From an uncultured Eubacterium sp. (GTDB lineage: Bacteria; Bacillota; Clostridia; Oscillospirales; Acutalibacteraceae): a stretch of DNA of 6,324 nt. The notes beneath the pieces were generated by a model. That model saw only the letters and a program-made list of their open reading frames with translations, was not told the origin of the DNA and made no database searches. Every line of letters starts with the position of its first letter. Positions within the stretch are counted from its first letter, which is position 1. A program made the translations under genes and the position numbers. The stretch covers positions 1 through 6,324 of the forward strand of contig CAMFPZ010000054.1 in assembly GCA_945979635.1 (NCBI GenBank). Reading direction: 5' to 3'. This document shows, one piece after another, positions 1-6,324 of the stretch.

Positions 1-585
1 GTTACAAGCAGAAGCGGAATGACAGGAGCAGATGCCGCTTGGAGAATATTACAGCTAAACGGCATTACCGATGTAAAAATTAAAAGAGTTTCCGGAAGAT
101 TGACGGATTATTATGACCCAAAGGCAAAGGAAATATGCCTTAGTGAGGATGTTTTTGATTCTCGTTCCATTGCGGCTATAGGAGTAGCGTGCCACGAAGC
201 AGGCCACGCCTGCCAACACGATCAAGAATACTTTCCTCTCAAAATAAGAAATTTCGTTATTCCCGCAACAAGAATAGGGTCATCATTAGGTGTTCCTTTA
301 TGCCTAATCGGACTATTAATAAATTCAACAGAGCTTGCATATGTTGGAATAATTATGTACAGTTTTGTTGCGTTATTCCAACTTATTACACTTCCGGTTG
401 AATTCAACGCAAGCAGAAGGGCCTTACAGCTCATTGATTCAAACGGATTTTTAACTGATGAAGAATTTAAGGGTGCAAAGAAGGTATTAACCGCAGCCGC
501 ATTAACATATGTAGCTGCATTGGCATCTGCACTCGCTTCAATTCTACGATTATTGATTTTGGTTTCAGGTGGAAGAAGACGGTGA
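1..585 (+). CDS. YugP-like membrane zinc metallopeptidase (5' partial)
   Basis: Member of the neutral zinc metallopeptidase family typified by B. subtilis YugP (Zn_peptidase_2). The HExxH zinc site reads HEAGH at 193-207 within CHEAGHACQH. A conserved PVEFNASRRAL segment follows, whose Glu (400-402) is the probable third zinc ligand. Hydrophobic stretches follow the zinc motif at about 271-330, 331-390 and 490-570, so it is an integral membrane protein. The frame is open from base 1 (VTSRSG before the first ATG at 19). In the family a similar SRGMTGAEVA-like segment lies inside the protein, so the ATG at 19 is probably internal and roughly 35-40 N-terminal residues, including a first membrane helix, lie outside the window. 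The stop overlaps the rsmB start by 4 bp (GTGA). The physiological substrate is not established for this family. Family assignment is firm; the role is unknown. Confidence 0.9.
   Translation, partial: VTSRSGMTGADAAWRILQLNGITDVKIKRVSGRLTDYYDPKAKEICLSEDVFDSRSIAAIGVACHEAGHACQHDQEYFPLKIRNFVIPATRIGSSLGVPLCLIGLLINSTELAYVGIIMYSFVALFQLITLPVEFNASRRALQLIDSNGFLTDEEFKGAKKVLTAAALTYVAALASALASILRLLILVSGGRRR
567..572 (+). promoter_or_regulatory. Shine-Dalgarno site for rsmB
   Basis: AGGTGG lies 9 bases before a GTG codon at 582 and inside the end of the upstream peptidase gene. It supports the GTG as the rsmB start. No ATG occurs in that frame until about residue 84, which is too late to keep the NusB-like domain. 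Confidence 0.55.
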
Positions 586-1820
586 AAAGCAGCAGATTAA
601 AAGCGTTTGAAATATTACAAAGTATTATCCGAGATTGTGCATATTCGAATTTAGCACTTGAAAAAGAGCTTAATAATGTTGAGCCTAAGGATAGGGCATT
701 CGTCTCAAAAATTGTTTATGGCGTAACAGAACGCCGACTTACACTTGATTATGTATTGAATAAGTTTCTAACAGGAAAAACAAAGCCAAAGCTAAGGATT
801 GTCCTTTATATCGGTGCATATCAAATCCTGTATATGGATAAAATTCCTGTTCCTGTCGCCATATTCGAAACTGTTAAATTGGCAGAGGAGACAGGTCTTT
901 CGTATTACAAAAAGCTTGTTAATGCTGTTTTGAGAAAAGTTGCTGATTCTGCTGAAGAATTAAGAAATATTGACGATTTAAGCATATTATATTCTTGTCC
1001 GCAAAGCCTTATTAATATGTGGACAAAAATGTACGGAAAAGAAAAAACAGAAGAAATTCTAAAGGTTATTAATGACAGACCACCGATTTTCGCTATACCA
1101 AACAGAAAATTTGTGAACGCCGAAGAGCTACAATATGAGCTTTTAAGCAACGATATTGAATGTGAAATTTTTAATGAAGTAGTGAAAATCAACAGTTCAT
1201 TTGATTTATCAAAATGTAAGGCATTTAACGATGGATTATTCTACATAGAGGATTACAGCTCTTACATTGCTGCGAACGAATTAAATATTGTTGAAAACGA
1301 CATAGTCTTCGATTTTTGTGCATCACCGGGTGGAAAGAGCTTCACAATGGCACAAAATGGCGGCAATATCTATTCTATGGATATTCACAAGCATCGTGTC
1401 GATTTAATTCAGGTATCGGCAAAGAGACTTTGTCTGGAAAACATAACAACTCTGGTTAATGATGCAACCATCTTTAACGAAAGCCTACCAAGGGCAAACA
1501 AAATTCTTTGCGATGTACCATGCAGCGGCTTCGGAATAATCAGAAGAAAGCCGGAAATAAGATATAAGAATCTTGACGAAATTAAGGAATTACCTGAAAT
1601 TCAGTATAAAATTCTTGAAATGTCATCTAAATACTTAACAAAAAACGGTGAGATTTTATATTCAACCTGCACATTAAACAAAAAAGAAAATGAAAAAACA
1701 GTAGAAAAGTTTTTAGCAAATCACAAAAATTTCAGTTTAGTAAAGCAAAGAACGATATTCCCGAGTAACAGCTCCGGAGACGGCTTTTATTATGCACTTA
1801 TGGTAAAGAATAATGATTGA
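582..1820 (+). CDS. rsmB: 16S rRNA (cytosine-967-C5)-methyltransferase RsmB
   Basis: SAM-dependent RNA m5C methyltransferase that acts on C967 (E. coli numbering) of 16S rRNA in the cytoplasm. The 412 residues hold an N-terminal NusB-like RNA-binding domain (about 1-130), a linker domain, and a C-terminal Rossmann methyltransferase domain. SAM motif I is DFCASPGGK at residues 244-252. Motif IV, CDVPCSGFG, carries Cys314, and motif VI, STCTLNKKEN, carries Cys363. By family knowledge the motif VI Cys is the nucleophile and the motif IV Cys helps release the product; both are present, so the enzyme looks active. Length is slightly below the 429 residues of E. coli RsmB. The start is GTG at 582, overlapping the upstream stop by 4 bp, and the 3' end overlaps rlmN by 8 bp, consistent with translational coupling. 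Nothing in the gene looks damaged. Confidence 0.95.
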   Translation: MKSSRLKAFEILQSIIRDCAYSNLALEKELNNVEPKDRAFVSKIVYGVTERRLTLDYVLNKFLTGKTKPKLRIVLYIGAYQILYMDKIPVPVAIFETVKLAEETGLSYYKKLVNAVLRKVADSAEELRNIDDLSILYSCPQSLINMWTKMYGKEKTEEILKVINDRPPIFAIPNRKFVNAEELQYELLSNDIECEIFNEVVKINSSFDLSKCKAFNDGLFYIEDYSSYIAANELNIVENDIVFDFCASPGGKSFTMAQNGGNIYSMDIHKHRVDLIQVSAKRLCLENITTLVNDATIFNESLPRANKILCDVPCSGFGIIRRKPEIRYKNLDEIKELPEIQYKILEMSSKYLTKNGEILYSTCTLNKKENEKTVEKFLANHKNFSLVKQRTIFPSNSSGDGFYYALMVKNND

Positions 1821-2850
1821 TATTAAATCGCTTAATTTCGACGAATTGAATAACACAGTAAACGCACTAAATATTCCGAAATTCAGAACTAACCAGATTT
1901 ATTCGTGGCTTCACGAAAAGGGAGTATTCAGCTTTGATGAAATGTCAAATTTATCAAAGGAGCTTCGAGAAAGGCTGAAGAAGAATTACTTTATTCCCGT
2001 TGTCGATATTGAGGAAAAATACATATCGAAGATTGACGAAACGATAAAGTATTTATTCAGGTTATATGACGGCGAATATGTTGAAGCTGTTATAATGAAA
2101 TATAAATACGGTTATACAATCTGCATTTCAAGTCAGGTTGGGTGTAAAATGGGATGCAAATTTTGTGCATCCACTCTAGCAGGATTTAAGCGAAATTTAC
2201 TTCCTGCCGAAATGGAAGGACAAATTCATAAAGCACAGCAGGATTTAGGCATTAGAATATCACATATTGTTCTTATGGGTATTGGTGAACCTCTGGATAA
2301 TTATGATAATGTAGTAAAATTCCTTCGAACGGTAAATGATGACAGGGGACTTAATATTTCGTTAAGAGATATAACGCTGTCCACCTGCGGTATTGTACCG
2401 AAAATACGGGACTTAATGGACGAGGGCATGCCTATAACCCTTACTTTATCCTTGCACGCACCGAATGACGAAATTCGCTCAAGAACAATGCCCATAAATG
2501 ATAAATGGGGAATAGAAGAGGTAATTAATGCGTGCAAAGCATATGCTGAAAAAACCGGCAGACGGGTTTCCTTCGAATATACTCTCATTAGCGGAGTGAA
2601 CGATTCGAAGGAATGTGCAGTTGAATTATCAAGCAGACTAAAGGGCTTTCCTTGCCATGTTAATCTTATTCCGGTCAACGATGTCAAGGAAAGAAATAAT
2701 AAGCCGTCCGACAAAAAAGCAATAAAACAATTCCAAGAAACTCTATGCTCACTGGGCGTAAATGCTACAACAAGACGAACATTGGGTTCAGATATAAACG
2801 CTTCATGCGGACAATTAAGACGCAGAAAAAACGAGGTGATCAGTAAATGA
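1813..2850 (+). CDS. rlmN: Dual-specificity 23S rRNA A2503 / tRNA A37 C2-methyltransferase RlmN
   Basis: Radical-SAM enzyme that methylates C2 of A2503 in 23S rRNA and of A37 in some tRNAs. At 345 residues it is of normal family length. The 4Fe-4S motif CxxxCxxC is at Cys111, Cys115 and Cys118 (GCKMGCKFCAST). Cys332 in the C-terminal DINASCGQLRRR segment matches the methyl-carrying Cys355 of E. coli. Cys104, seven residues before the cluster motif, matches the resolving Cys118 of E. coli. MGIGEPLDNYDN is the conserved GEP motif near the SAM site. All mechanistic cysteines are therefore present. The ATG at 1813 lies inside the end of rsmB (8-bp overlap) with only weak Shine-Dalgarno complementarity, so translation probably depends on rsmB. 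I call RlmN rather than its relative Cfr because of the operon position. Confidence 0.95.
   Translation: MIDIKSLNFDELNNTVNALNIPKFRTNQIYSWLHEKGVFSFDEMSNLSKELRERLKKNYFIPVVDIEEKYISKIDETIKYLFRLYDGEYVEAVIMKYKYGYTICISSQVGCKMGCKFCASTLAGFKRNLLPAEMEGQIHKAQQDLGIRISHIVLMGIGEPLDNYDNVVKFLRTVNDDRGLNISLRDITLSTCGIVPKIRDLMDEGMPITLTLSLHAPNDEIRSRTMPINDKWGIEEVINACKAYAEKTGRRVSFEYTLISGVNDSKECAVELSSRLKGFPCHVNLIPVNDVKERNNKPSDKKAIKQFQETLCSLGVNATTRRTLGSDINASCGQLRRRKNEVISK
2833..2839 (+). promoter_or_regulatory. Shine-Dalgarno site for prpC
   Basis: GAGGTGA, 7 bases before the ATG at 2847, is a strong site embedded in the last codons of rlmN. It fixes the phosphatase start at the ATGA overlap. Confidence 0.8.
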
Positions 2851-3575
2851 AAATTGTTGCAAAAACCGATAAAGGTATGGTAAGAGCAAATAATCAAGAT
2901 GCCTATGCAGTAGGTGAGCTCCCAGGAGAAGTTGCTTGGGCTGTTGTTTGCGACGGAATGGGTGGTGAAGCAGGCGGAAATATTGCCTCTGCACTTGCAG
3001 TTAAGGTTATCAGTGAGAAAATTACAGCCTCATATAATCAAAAAATGCGAGATGCTTCAATAAAAAACCTACTAGATTCAGCTATTGCTGCCGCAAATAT
3101 CGAAGTATACGATATGGCTTATTCACGCCCCGATTTGCAAGGAATGGGAACTACTGTAATTGCAGTCATAGTTAGGGATAATATTGCATTTATTGCTCAT
3201 GCAGGAGACAGCAGAGCATATATCGTTGACGGGGATGTTGTAAAGCAAATAACAACTGATCACAGTCTAGTACAAAACCTTGTTGACAGAGGTGAAATTA
3301 CCCAAGAACAGGCACAGCACCACCCAAAGAAAAATTTAATCACAAGAGCTGTCGGTGTTGATAAGCAAATTGTCGTAGATTTCAGCGAAACAGAAATAAA
3401 TGATAACGAGACCCTGATACTATGTACCGACGGCTTGAGCAATTTCGTTACAAACGAAGAAATGGTCGAGGATATTAAGGACGGTCAATACTATGCATTT
3501 GCCGACCGCCTTGTAAAAAGAGCAAACAAAAACGGTGGCGGCGATAATATTACTGTTGTTGCCATTGCTAACTAA
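2847..3575 (+). CDS. prpC: PP2C-type Ser/Thr protein phosphatase PrpC
   Basis: Metal-dependent (Mn/Mg) cytoplasmic protein phosphatase that removes phosphate from the neighbouring kinase PrkC and its substrates. The 242 residues make a single PP2C domain of normal bacterial length with no extra domain. Visible motifs in order are NNQDAY (Asp18), CDGMGGEAGG (Asp36 and Gly37, core metal ligands), GTTVIAVIV, AHAGDSRAYI, TTDHSLVQNLVDRGEI, HPKKNLITRAVG, LCTDGLSNFV (Asp195) and GGGDNITVV (Asp233). All acidic metal ligands expected of the family are in place. The ATG overlaps the rlmN stop by 4 bp (ATGA), and prkC starts 17 bp after its stop, the standard phosphatase-kinase pair of Firmicutes. The gene is intact, in contrast to its partner kinase. 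Confidence 0.95.
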   Translation: MKIVAKTDKGMVRANNQDAYAVGELPGEVAWAVVCDGMGGEAGGNIASALAVKVISEKITASYNQKMRDASIKNLLDSAIAAANIEVYDMAYSRPDLQGMGTTVIAVIVRDNIAFIAHAGDSRAYIVDGDVVKQITTDHSLVQNLVDRGEITQEQAQHHPKKNLITRAVGVDKQIVVDFSETEINDNETLILCTDGLSNFVTNEEMVEDIKDGQYYAFADRLVKRANKNGGGDNITVVAIAN

Positions 3576-3580
3576 TATAT

Positions 3581-3585
3581 GAGGT
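3581..3585 (+). promoter_or_regulatory. Shine-Dalgarno site for prkC
   Basis: GAGGT, 7 bases before the ATG at 3593 and inside the 17-bp prpC-prkC gap, fixes the kinase start. Confidence 0.75.
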
Positions 3586-3592
3586 TGAAACT

Positions 3593-4498
3593 ATGGATAA
3601 TTATGTAGGAAAAAGACTTGACGGAAGATACGAGGTTCAAGAAATAATCGGCGTTGGTGGGATGTCGGTTGTTTACAAGGCGTACGATAATGTCGATGAC
3701 AGAATCGTGGCAATAAAAATTCTGAAGGATGAATTTCTGAATAACGAAGAATTCAAGCGTAGATTCAAAAACGAGAGCAAGGCAATTGCATTACTCTCTC
3801 ACGAAAATATTGTGAAGGTTTATGATGTCAATTTTGGAGAAAAGCTTCAATATATCGTTATGGAATATATTGACGGAATCACACTCAAGGAATATATCAA
3901 TAAACAAAATTCCATTTCCTGGAACGATGCCTTGTTTTTCATTACGCAAATATTAAGAGCTGTACAACACGCCCACGACAAGGGAATTGTACATCGAGAT
4001 ATCAAGCCTCAAAACATAATTTTACTTCCAAACGGAAATATTAAGGTAACAGATTTTGGTATTGCAAGATTTTCTAGATCGGAAACAAAAACTCTAACCG
4101 AACAGGCAATAGGCTCTGTTCATTATATCGCACCTGAACAAGCAAAGGGTGAAATGACTGACGAAAGAGCCGATATTTATTCTATAGGTGTTGTACTTTA
4201 TGAAATGCTTGCAGGAAAGGTTCCTTTTGATTCGGAAAACGCCGTATCGGTCGCTTTAATGCAAGTTCAGGCTAATGCAGAAAAGCTAACCCAAATCAAT
4301 CCGGATATACCAAAGGGACTTGAACAGGTTTGTGTTCACGCAATGCAAAAGAACCCTAACGACAGATATCAAACAGCAACAGAAATGCTTCTTGATGTTG
4401 AAGAGATAATCAAAAATCCAAACACTACTTTTAACTATATCAGTGCATCGAGATATCAAGCCTCAAAACATAATTTTACTTCCAAACGGAAATATTAA
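3593..4498 (+). CDS. prkC: PrkC kinase domain, cut off by a frameshifting duplication
   Basis: N-terminal part of a PASTA-type Hanks Ser/Thr kinase. The kinase domain is complete: glycine loop GVGGMSVVYKA at residues 20-30, ATP-binding Lys42 in VAIK, catalytic HRDIKPQN at 134-141 (Asp136), DFG at 154-156, a Thr-rich activation segment (TKTLTEQAIGSVHY), APEQ, and the final NPNDRYQTA segment near residue 270. Native sequence ends at Ala285. The frame then enters the second copy of a 454-bp tandem repeat one base out of register and adds 16 foreign residues (SRYQASKH...) before TAA at 4498. The product has no transmembrane helix or PASTA repeats. If the duplication is real, it would be a soluble kinase that may still be active but cannot sense the cell wall directly. 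A normal PrkC from this locus would be 657 residues, close to the 648 of B. subtilis PrkC. Confidence 0.9.
   Translation: MDNYVGKRLDGRYEVQEIIGVGGMSVVYKAYDNVDDRIVAIKILKDEFLNNEEFKRRFKNESKAIALLSHENIVKVYDVNFGEKLQYIVMEYIDGITLKEYINKQNSISWNDALFFITQILRAVQHAHDKGIVHRDIKPQNIILLPNGNIKVTDFGIARFSRSETKTLTEQAIGSVHYIAPEQAKGEMTDERADIYSIGVVLYEMLAGKVPFDSENAVSVALMQVQANAEKLTQINPDIPKGLEQVCVHAMQKNPNDRYQTATEMLLDVEEIIKNPNTTFNYISASRYQASKHNFTSKRKY
3992..4445 (+). repeat. 454-bp tandem direct repeat, copy 1
   Basis: Copy 1 begins at the first base of the His134 codon of the HRD motif and covers the kinase C-lobe and the start of the juxtamembrane linker. Reading it base by base against 4446-4899, I found no mismatch. 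Identity continues 2 bp further (CA at 4446-4447 equals CA at 4900-4901), so the matched stretch is 456 bp. The period of 454 leaves remainder 1 on division by 3, which is why the reading frame breaks. Confidence 0.97.
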
Positions 4499-6020
4499 GG
4501 TAACAGATTTTGGTATTGCAAGATTTTCTAGATCGGAAACAAAAACTCTAACCGAACAGGCAATAGGCTCTGTTCATTATATCGCACCTGAACAAGCAAA
4601 GGGTGAAATGACTGACGAAAGAGCCGATATTTATTCTATAGGTGTTGTACTTTATGAAATGCTTGCAGGAAAGGTTCCTTTTGATTCGGAAAACGCCGTA
4701 TCGGTCGCTTTAATGCAAGTTCAGGCTAATGCAGAAAAGCTAACCCAAATCAATCCGGATATACCAAAGGGACTTGAACAGGTTTGTGTTCACGCAATGC
4801 AAAAGAACCCTAACGACAGATATCAAACAGCAACAGAAATGCTTCTTGATGTTGAAGAGATAATCAAAAATCCAAACACTACTTTTAACTATATCAGTGC
4901 AACAGATGCTTCTTTTTCAAACCCAAATCCTATCGTACAATATGATGAATACGAGGAAGCTATGGATACACAAGATAATATTAAACGCAAAAAGAAGACC
5001 AGAGTTGCAATTATCGTATGTGTTACTATATTGATTGCTGCAATAATAGGCGTTGTTATGCTATTTACCTCAAGTATGAATGCAACAACCCAAAAGCTGG
5101 AAAACTTTATTGGCTTCTCCTATGATGAATTACAAAGCGATAATTCCTATTCCTATGAGTTTGTTGCCGAATACAGAAAGACTAATGAACAAGAACCGGG
5201 AATTATCATAAATCAGTCTCCTGAAGCAGGCTCAAGAATAACAAAGGGCTCAAAGGTAACTCTAATAGTTGCTGCTTCGGAAAACGATATTAAAATTACA
5301 AATGTATATGGATTATCAAAGGAGTTGGCTGAAGAAACACTCAAGCAAGACGGTCTTTCCGTATTCAAAATATTGAGAGTGCCAAGCGAGTCCGTTGAAG
5401 AGGGTAAGGTAGTTTATACCGATCCGAAGGCAGGCACAATTGTTTCGGCAGAACAAGAGATAAAGATATATATTTCCGACGGTCCAACCACAACAAAGAT
5501 TGAAACACTTAAGGTTCCTGATGTTGTTGGATTAACACAAAGCGGTGCAACTGAATTCTTAAAGAAATACGGCTTTACAAATGTTACCTTCGAAACACAG
5601 GATAGTACTATTAGAAAGGGAGTAGCTATTTCGCAATCTCCAACCGCAGGAACTCCAATAAAAGAAAATGACCCTATCAAGGTAATTATCAGTACGGGTG
5701 AAACAACAACAGAGCCAAAGAATATAACATATGTAATTGATGTTCAATTACCAACCAAAAACGGAGCTAATGATACCTTGGTAGTCAAGCTTGATGGCGA
5801 TGTTTATTCCTCAAAGCATATTTTAGCAAACGGAAAAACCGTAAGAATTGCAATAGTAGGAGAAGGAAACAAGAACCAAACAATTCAGGTCTCACTTACT
5901 AAAGCAGGTGCAATAGAAACAATCAGCGTAAACGGCAAGGAAGACCAGAGCTTCTCTGTTGATTTTAGCAGTGCAGCTTCGCAGTATCCCGACAGTGCCG
6001 AAAACAACGATGCAAACTAA
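4443..6020 (+). CDS. prkC: PrkC C-terminal part: partial kinase lobe, transmembrane helix, three PASTA repeats
   Basis: Second half of the split kinase gene. The open frame can begin at GTG 4443, directly before the His of the HRD motif, but no Shine-Dalgarno site precedes it, so translation from there is doubtful. This part has the catalytic loop, DFG and APE but lacks the glycine loop and the ATP-binding Lys, so it cannot be an active kinase alone. A basic stretch (KRKKKTR) precedes one transmembrane helix (about 5004-5070). Outside the cell lie three PASTA repeats (about 5091-5276, 5286-5480 and 5510-5697; the third, VPDVVGLTQSGA, is the most typical), which in the family bind muropeptides or lipid II. 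A further beta-rich C-terminal segment (about 5718-5975) ends in a polar tail. With one repeat copy removed, it continues in frame from Ala285 of the upstream part. Confidence 0.85.
   Translation: MHRDIKPQNIILLPNGNIKVTDFGIARFSRSETKTLTEQAIGSVHYIAPEQAKGEMTDERADIYSIGVVLYEMLAGKVPFDSENAVSVALMQVQANAEKLTQINPDIPKGLEQVCVHAMQKNPNDRYQTATEMLLDVEEIIKNPNTTFNYISATDASFSNPNPIVQYDEYEEAMDTQDNIKRKKKTRVAIIVCVTILIAAIIGVVMLFTSSMNATTQKLENFIGFSYDELQSDNSYSYEFVAEYRKTNEQEPGIIINQSPEAGSRITKGSKVTLIVAASENDIKITNVYGLSKELAEETLKQDGLSVFKILRVPSESVEEGKVVYTDPKAGTIVSAEQEIKIYISDGPTTTKIETLKVPDVVGLTQSGATEFLKKYGFTNVTFETQDSTIRKGVAISQSPTAGTPIKENDPIKVIISTGETTTEPKNITYVIDVQLPTKNGANDTLVVKLDGDVYSSKHILANGKTVRIAIVGEGNKNQTIQVSLTKAGAIETISVNGKEDQSFSVDFSSAASQYPDSAENNDAN
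4446..4899 (+). repeat. 454-bp tandem direct repeat, copy 2
   Basis: Copy 2 directly abuts copy 1 with no spacer, no inserted bases and no target-site duplication. The junction reads CAGTG-CA-TCGAG, where the CA is shared by both flanks (2-bp microhomology). Bases outside the repeats differ: A at 3991 versus G at 4445, and T at 4448 versus A at 4902. The repeat encodes nothing but kinase sequence, so it is an internal gene duplication and not a mobile element. Confidence 0.97.
4953..4964 (+). promoter_or_regulatory. Possible internal Shine-Dalgarno site and ATG before the PrkC membrane helix
   Basis: GAGG at 4953-4956 stands 5 bases before an in-frame ATG at 4962. Starting here would give a short basic cytoplasmic tail (MDTQDNIKRKKKTR), the membrane helix and all PASTA repeats, without kinase sequence. 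It is the best-spaced ribosome-binding site I found in the second half of the split gene. GAGG also encodes ordinary Glu codons, so this may be chance. Confidence 0.25.
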
Positions 6021-6035
6021 AATGAAACAAAGCTA

Positions 6036-6324
6036 ATGGATAAAATAATTAAAGACGGAAAAATAGTAAAAGGCATTGGCGGATTTTACTATGTAGAAAG
6101 CGACAACAAAATATTTGAGTGCAAGGCGAGAGGTAGCTTCAGAAATCAAAAGCTATCTCCTCTTGTAGGCGACAATGTTCAAATCAGCATAAACGAAAAC
6201 AGCGAAAACACTATTGAAAAAATTTACGAAAGAAAGAATTCTTTAGTTCGTCCGCCGCTAGCAAATATAGATAGATTATTCATTGTTGCCTCCCTGGTCG
6301 ACCCTAGAATTAATACAATCATAA
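6036..6324 (+). CDS. rsgA: Ribosome small-subunit-dependent GTPase RsgA, N-terminal part (3' partial)
   Basis: The first 96 codons of a gene running off the right edge. The translation matches the N-terminal OB-fold domain of RsgA (YloQ/CpgA): KIVKGIGGFYYVES, then FECKARGSFRNQKLSPLVGD, then the RKNSLVRPPLANIDRLFIVAS segment that leads into the GTPase domain. RsgA is a circularly permuted GTPase that assists late 30S subunit maturation; the G motifs and zinc-binding tail lie beyond the window. The ATG at 6036 is 15 bp after the prkC stop and has no clear Shine-Dalgarno site. A four-codon ORF (ATG 6022 to TAA 6034-6036) ends on the first base of this ATG, so initiation may rely on ribosomes arriving from upstream. 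In B. subtilis this gene also follows prkC, and its product is a reported PrkC substrate. Confidence 0.93.
   Translation, partial: MDKIIKDGKIVKGIGGFYYVESDNKIFECKARGSFRNQKLSPLVGDNVQISINENSENTIEKIYERKNSLVRPPLANIDRLFIVASLVDPRINTII

Follow-up and report, generated by a model that had tools for sequence, protein, structure and literature searches.

PASTA kinases of the PrkC/PknB type (NF033483) carry a kinase domain, a membrane helix and PASTA stretches in one chain. The locus described here shares with them the gene order rlmN-stp-prkC-rsgA, the kinase domain, the membrane helix and three PASTA stretches, and it differs from them in that prkC, as assembled, consists of two overlapping reading frames. 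An exact tandem duplication of 454 bases separates the two, and two kinds of described event can be set beside it.

Waite et al. (2001, 2003, as related in PMC4022640) described spontaneous sequence duplications in the capsule genes of pneumococci. According to the excerpts of that article considered here, these are tandem duplications inside an open reading frame that stop expression and can revert, and the prkC duplication likewise is tandem and lies inside an open reading frame. The same excerpts place the pneumococcal events in cultures, whereas the prkC event is seen in one contig and has its like in rpoB. The other kind of event is the chimera formed during phi29 MDA. In the excerpts of the report by Lasken and Stockwell (2007, PMC1855051), such chimeras prime on 2-21 matching bases, 85% are inverted and 15% are direct, order is reversed about half the time, and direct chimeras of less than 10 kb are few (11 of 475). 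For opposite-strand chimeras, excerpts of a larger study (PMC4595205) give a spacing peak of 250-300 bases and overlaps of about 6 bases. The phi29 chimeras of these excerpts are thus mostly inverted, whereas only direct ones are seen here, and they serve as an analogy for the draft genome that contains the locus (G000), whose source sample has no documented amplification. Our literature search on PASTA kinases combined with duplication or phase variation found no relevant paper, and that on reversible internal tandem duplication in bacteria returned cancer-related papers only.

The split prkC gene

The window, that is, the whole stretch of DNA that was analyzed, is the complete contig C54 (6,324 bases) of G000, a draft of 1,111,353 bases in 211 contigs that is 73.84% complete. 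Its gene cluster is ordinary and consists of a zinc metallopeptidase gene, rsmB (582..1820), rlmN (1813..2850; TIGR00048 above cut-off), a gene for a Stp1/PrpC-type PP2C phosphatase (2847..3575; NF033484 above cut-off), which is the usual partner of the PASTA kinase gene, the PASTA kinase gene itself, and the start of rsgA (6036..6323), where the contig ends. The features of the window given here with coordinates lie on the plus strand.

The kinase gene is present as two open reading frames. ORF1 (3593..4498, 301 aa) holds a Ser/Thr kinase domain, which Pfam places at residues 13-265 (profile positions 1-257 of 263), and it ends in a 16-residue out-of-frame tail (residues 286-301); residues 4-274 align with the best solved bacterial kinase domain. 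ORF2 (4443..6020, 525 aa) begins at the HRD motif of the kinase C-lobe and continues through the membrane helix, with Pfam matches to the later half of the kinase domain and to three PASTA stretches, and the N-lobe is absent. These two frames confirm the split of the kinase domain from the membrane helix and PASTA sensor that the initial annotation had proposed. As assembled, ORF1 and ORF2 score 414.2 and 358.3 bits against NF033483, both below the curated cut-off of 450 bits, and the kinase domain, membrane helix and PASTA stretches that the family joins in one chain are divided between them.

Tandem Repeats Finder reported a period of 454, 2.0 copies, 100% matches and 0% indels at 3992-4901, and an exact-match script found 456 matching bases at 3992 and 4446, which correspond to two 454-base copies plus a two-base overlap, CA. 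The first copy (3992..4445) extends from the catalytic-loop HRD through the rest of the kinase domain, the second (4446..4899) is identical to it, and the CA that is common to both copies and the flank lies at 4900..4901. Between the copies is the novel junction, CAGTGCATCGAG (4441..4452), whose donor and acceptor flanks match at 4 of 5 bases (GT[A/G]CA). Both programs therefore bear out the two identical copies that had been read from the sequence at the outset. The claim that the period is not a multiple of three holds as well: 454 is 1 mod 3, so that the PrkC frame is broken. A run of 456 exactly matching bases cannot be due to chance, and an exact repeat in a contig does not itself establish that the cell carries the duplication.

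We also considered an internal start at ATG 4962, with GAGGAAGCT just upstream, from which a PASTA-only protein might be made, and dropped it because it is not conserved among relative loci. The comparison covered 29 relative loci, of which 12 had a correctly placed helix, two were in the wrong frame (L030 and L031) and 15 gave no result; an ATG at the equivalent place was found in none of the 12. L008 and L009 have an ATG at 31 and 28 residues, respectively, ahead of the basic stretch, and no ribosome site accompanies it; L024 has a GTG with a possible ribosome site 20 residues ahead of that stretch.

PrkC in related sequences

A protein search identified P0001, a protein of 657 aa. It matches ORF2 over its full length and is identical to it at 522 of 525 residues. 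Of the three differing positions, one is merely the GTG start read as M, leaving two that are real. ORF1 is identical to P0001 through residue 285, where its out-of-frame tail begins. P0001 passes NF033483 (551.5 versus the cut-off of 450 bits), and its length agrees with the 657 residues that the initial annotation had given as normal for PrkC. Judging from this identity, we take P0001 to be from the same species as the window, and the two residue differences indicate that it is not from the window itself. The P0001 cluster comprises three member sequences and two contigs, the longest of which (13,495 bases) is longer than the window, the assignment of members to contigs not being tabulated. 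The split kinase frame with its tail (P0121, 301 aa) has one member and one contig, of 6,324 bases, a length equal to that of the window. The search with this frame scored 7,997 candidates, namely those that had the most words in common with it, and the two-copy form was not found outside the window contig among the 120 proteins listed of 1,227. Within G000 a second prkC was not found, the strong matches being the two overlapping pieces on C54 only; a third, weak match, 29% identical, lies on C3.

Among 36 genomes of the same genus, 31 have a strong PrkC match that covers ORF2 residues 1-459 or more, and 30 of these 31 matches are free of internal stops. The remaining match (L015, G026:C31) carries one in-frame TAA. 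In G022 the match covers residues 1-459 only, and a further piece starts another contig. A strong PrkC match is absent from G004, G006, G019, G025 and G035. The same five drafts gave no Stp1 match, in a search run without a positive control, and no RlmN match, in a search in which both control genomes matched RlmN; the missing PrkC, Stp1 and RlmN may reflect either a gap common to these drafts or true loss of the entire segment. Two of the five, G004 and G035, are listed as more than 90% complete.

A search of named genome contigs, from which the window's own genome records may be excluded, gave 20 loci of at most 59% identity. The relative loci examined contain no exact tandem copy of a length like 454. 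L039 and L044 have the longest exact repeats among them, of 71 and 85 bases, spaced by about 760, and short-unit arrays occur in L041 and L051.

Duplications of the same kind in the draft genome

An exact direct-repeat scan of G000, covering 121 of its 211 contigs (828,684 of 1,111,353 bases), found three complete exact two-copy tandem duplications, with periods of 454 on C54, 304 on C14 and 206 on C70. No period is divisible by 3, and each duplication splits a reading frame. The 206-base duplication on C70 (L151, 1080-1493, 208 matching bases) lies inside rpoB, the pieces of which are found at 302-1333 and 1294-4269. No other rpoB was found in G000, a 74% complete draft, in which the N-terminal piece matches C70 only. 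Since rpoB is essential, and a cell without RNA polymerase beta cannot live, the C70 duplication cannot be the true state of the genome. The 304-base duplication on C14 (L086, 8143-8752, 306 matching bases) splits a membrane gene whose neighbor encodes an ABC-transporter ATPase, this naming being based on the neighbor and the hydrophobic sequence because the pieces themselves have no NCBIfam match. C14 begins with sequencing adapter.

Two further contigs have starts that recur a short distance downstream. The start of C11 (L083, 1-264) recurs 209 bases on, as a 55-base match at positions 1 and 210, and that of C22 (L124, 1-267) recurs 234 bases on, as a 33-base match at positions 1 and 235. 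Both starts probably reflect like events left as unresolved loops, in which the end of a unit would have been joined backwards. Three complete and two putative partial events in 121 of 211 contigs amount to several like events in a single draft, and with rpoB on C70 an essential gene is struck regardless of function, as would be expected of chimeras. Since the like events strike genes regardless of function, the prkC duplication is best read as one more case.

As a control, 20 stretches (311,866 bases) from six same-genus genomes, including about 111 kb from two adapter-bearing relatives, were found to contain no tandem events; about 1.1 events would be expected there at the G000 rate, so that this control is weak and the excess in G000 is not significant alone. 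The argument for an artefact thus rests on rpoB and not on duplication counts. We had also considered a link between the periods 454 and 304, whose difference of 150 is a read length, and dropped it once the period of 206 appeared.

Origin of the prkC duplication

All three complete junctions have exactly two overlapping bases and two more matches past one mismatch, their flanks matching at 4 of 5 bases each (GT[A/G]CA, AT[T/G]AG and AT[A/G]TC), so that the short junction homology typical of chimeras is present in every complete event. When 400,000 random joins were made in the same contigs over 200-460 bases, an overlap of at least 2 bases arose in 17.1%; in 2.3% there were, in addition, two further matches beyond a mismatch on one side, a pattern that was chosen post hoc. 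An earlier null, in which joins were weighted by the number of equivalent positions, gave 6.8%. The two-base overlap in all three junctions favors re-priming on short matches over a pure software slip, and microhomology of this sort is also compatible with duplication in living cells. In a search of 61 contigs for inverted chimeras, exact inverted arms of at least 30 bases were found only at the very ends of two contigs. That only direct joins were seen in G000 counts against an origin in phi29-type amplification.

Of 20 directed overlaps between contig ends, 14 measure 55 bases, corresponding to 7 of 10 pairs, as is usual for de Bruijn assembly with k=55. In such an assembler, sequence that is joined backwards forms a loop, and when the loop is traversed once, the unit is written out exactly a second time. 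Untrimmed adapter, presumably Nextera, is present at 36 sites on 34 of the 211 contigs, whereas the reversed control pattern has 0 sites; at least 33 of the 36 sites are at a contig end, the other three being on C119, C120 and C142. C54 itself has no adapter.

Given that the same kind of doubling breaks the only rpoB found, the doubling in prkC is in all likelihood an artefact of sequencing or assembly, a view that we hold with high confidence for an origin in either a chimera or a software join. The initial annotation had left the choice between a very recent event and an assembly artefact, and it is the latter part that the like duplication in rpoB upholds. The chimera route taken alone is probably the source. 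By this route, a chimeric molecule made during amplification or library preparation would link the end of a stretch back to where that stretch begins, perhaps when a displaced 3' end re-primes upstream on 2-5 matching bases. Low read depth might then let the rare junction survive in the graph as a loop, which a short-read assembler would write out as a second copy. The cell's own prkC would in that case be one intact gene encoding one membrane kinase, and the likely truth is one intact prkC together with a chimeric junction in a low-quality draft. An artefact could also have arisen if two contig ends with an existing overlap of 456 bases were placed end to end by the assembly software and left unmerged, and the exact copies, the fragmentary draft and the contig-end overlaps left unmerged elsewhere would all be in keeping with this. 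However, a blunt join would not select for the two-base overlap and the match at 4 of 5 positions that all three complete junctions show, at least two overlapping bases being expected in only the 17.1% of random joins noted above, and we therefore consider a software join without a chimeric molecule unlikely.

It is very improbable that a real recent tandem duplication broke prkC, with loss of the membrane-tied kinase and without switching. Exact copies with short end homology do have the look of a fresh duplication, and the lack of a strong PrkC match in five of 36 same-genus drafts could mean that the gene is dispensable, but those five drafts are also without Stp1 and RlmN matches, which fits a draft gap as readily as gene loss. 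Moreover, the 99% identical allele P0001 is intact, and the same class of event in rpoB is impossible in a living cell. The prkC and rpoB events could differ in origin, and nothing in hand favors a true event in prkC alongside a false one in rpoB. We give least credence to phase variation, in which the 454-base copy would be gained and lost and the wall-sensing kinase switched off and on. The duplication is exact, tandem, inside an open reading frame and out of frame, as in a spontaneous sequence duplication; it is long enough for recombinational removal, a one-copy allele exists (P0001, on another contig), and the excerpts on pneumococcal capsule genes (PMC4022640) supply a precedent. Nevertheless, the two-copy state is found in one contig only, the end homology of just two exact bases shows no hot spot, and equal events occur in rpoB and in the membrane gene beside the ABC ATPase. 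The reversible on/off switch suggested by the initial annotation is thus unsupported, there being no positive evidence for it beyond the direct repeat itself, and it is correspondingly hard to credit that the duplication reversibly replaces a wall-sensing kinase tied to the membrane by a kinase domain free in the cytosol. If true, such a switch would uncouple wall sensing in a fraction of cells.

With a chimeric junction as the preferred reading, this locus indicates that caution is needed, since tandem copies without a mismatch in a draft genome can mimic a fresh mutation or a switch. Looking for equal events in unbreakable genes of the same draft is a quick test that needs no reads, and it gave a clear answer here. 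We flag G000 and two same-genus drafts for untrimmed adapter; those two, G014 with 13 sites and G017 with 20 sites, are the two of 59 relatives in which the adapter is also present. A second sequence of at least 40 bases, perhaps another adapter, is common to about ten contigs of G000 (e.g. L072, L074, L077 and L104).
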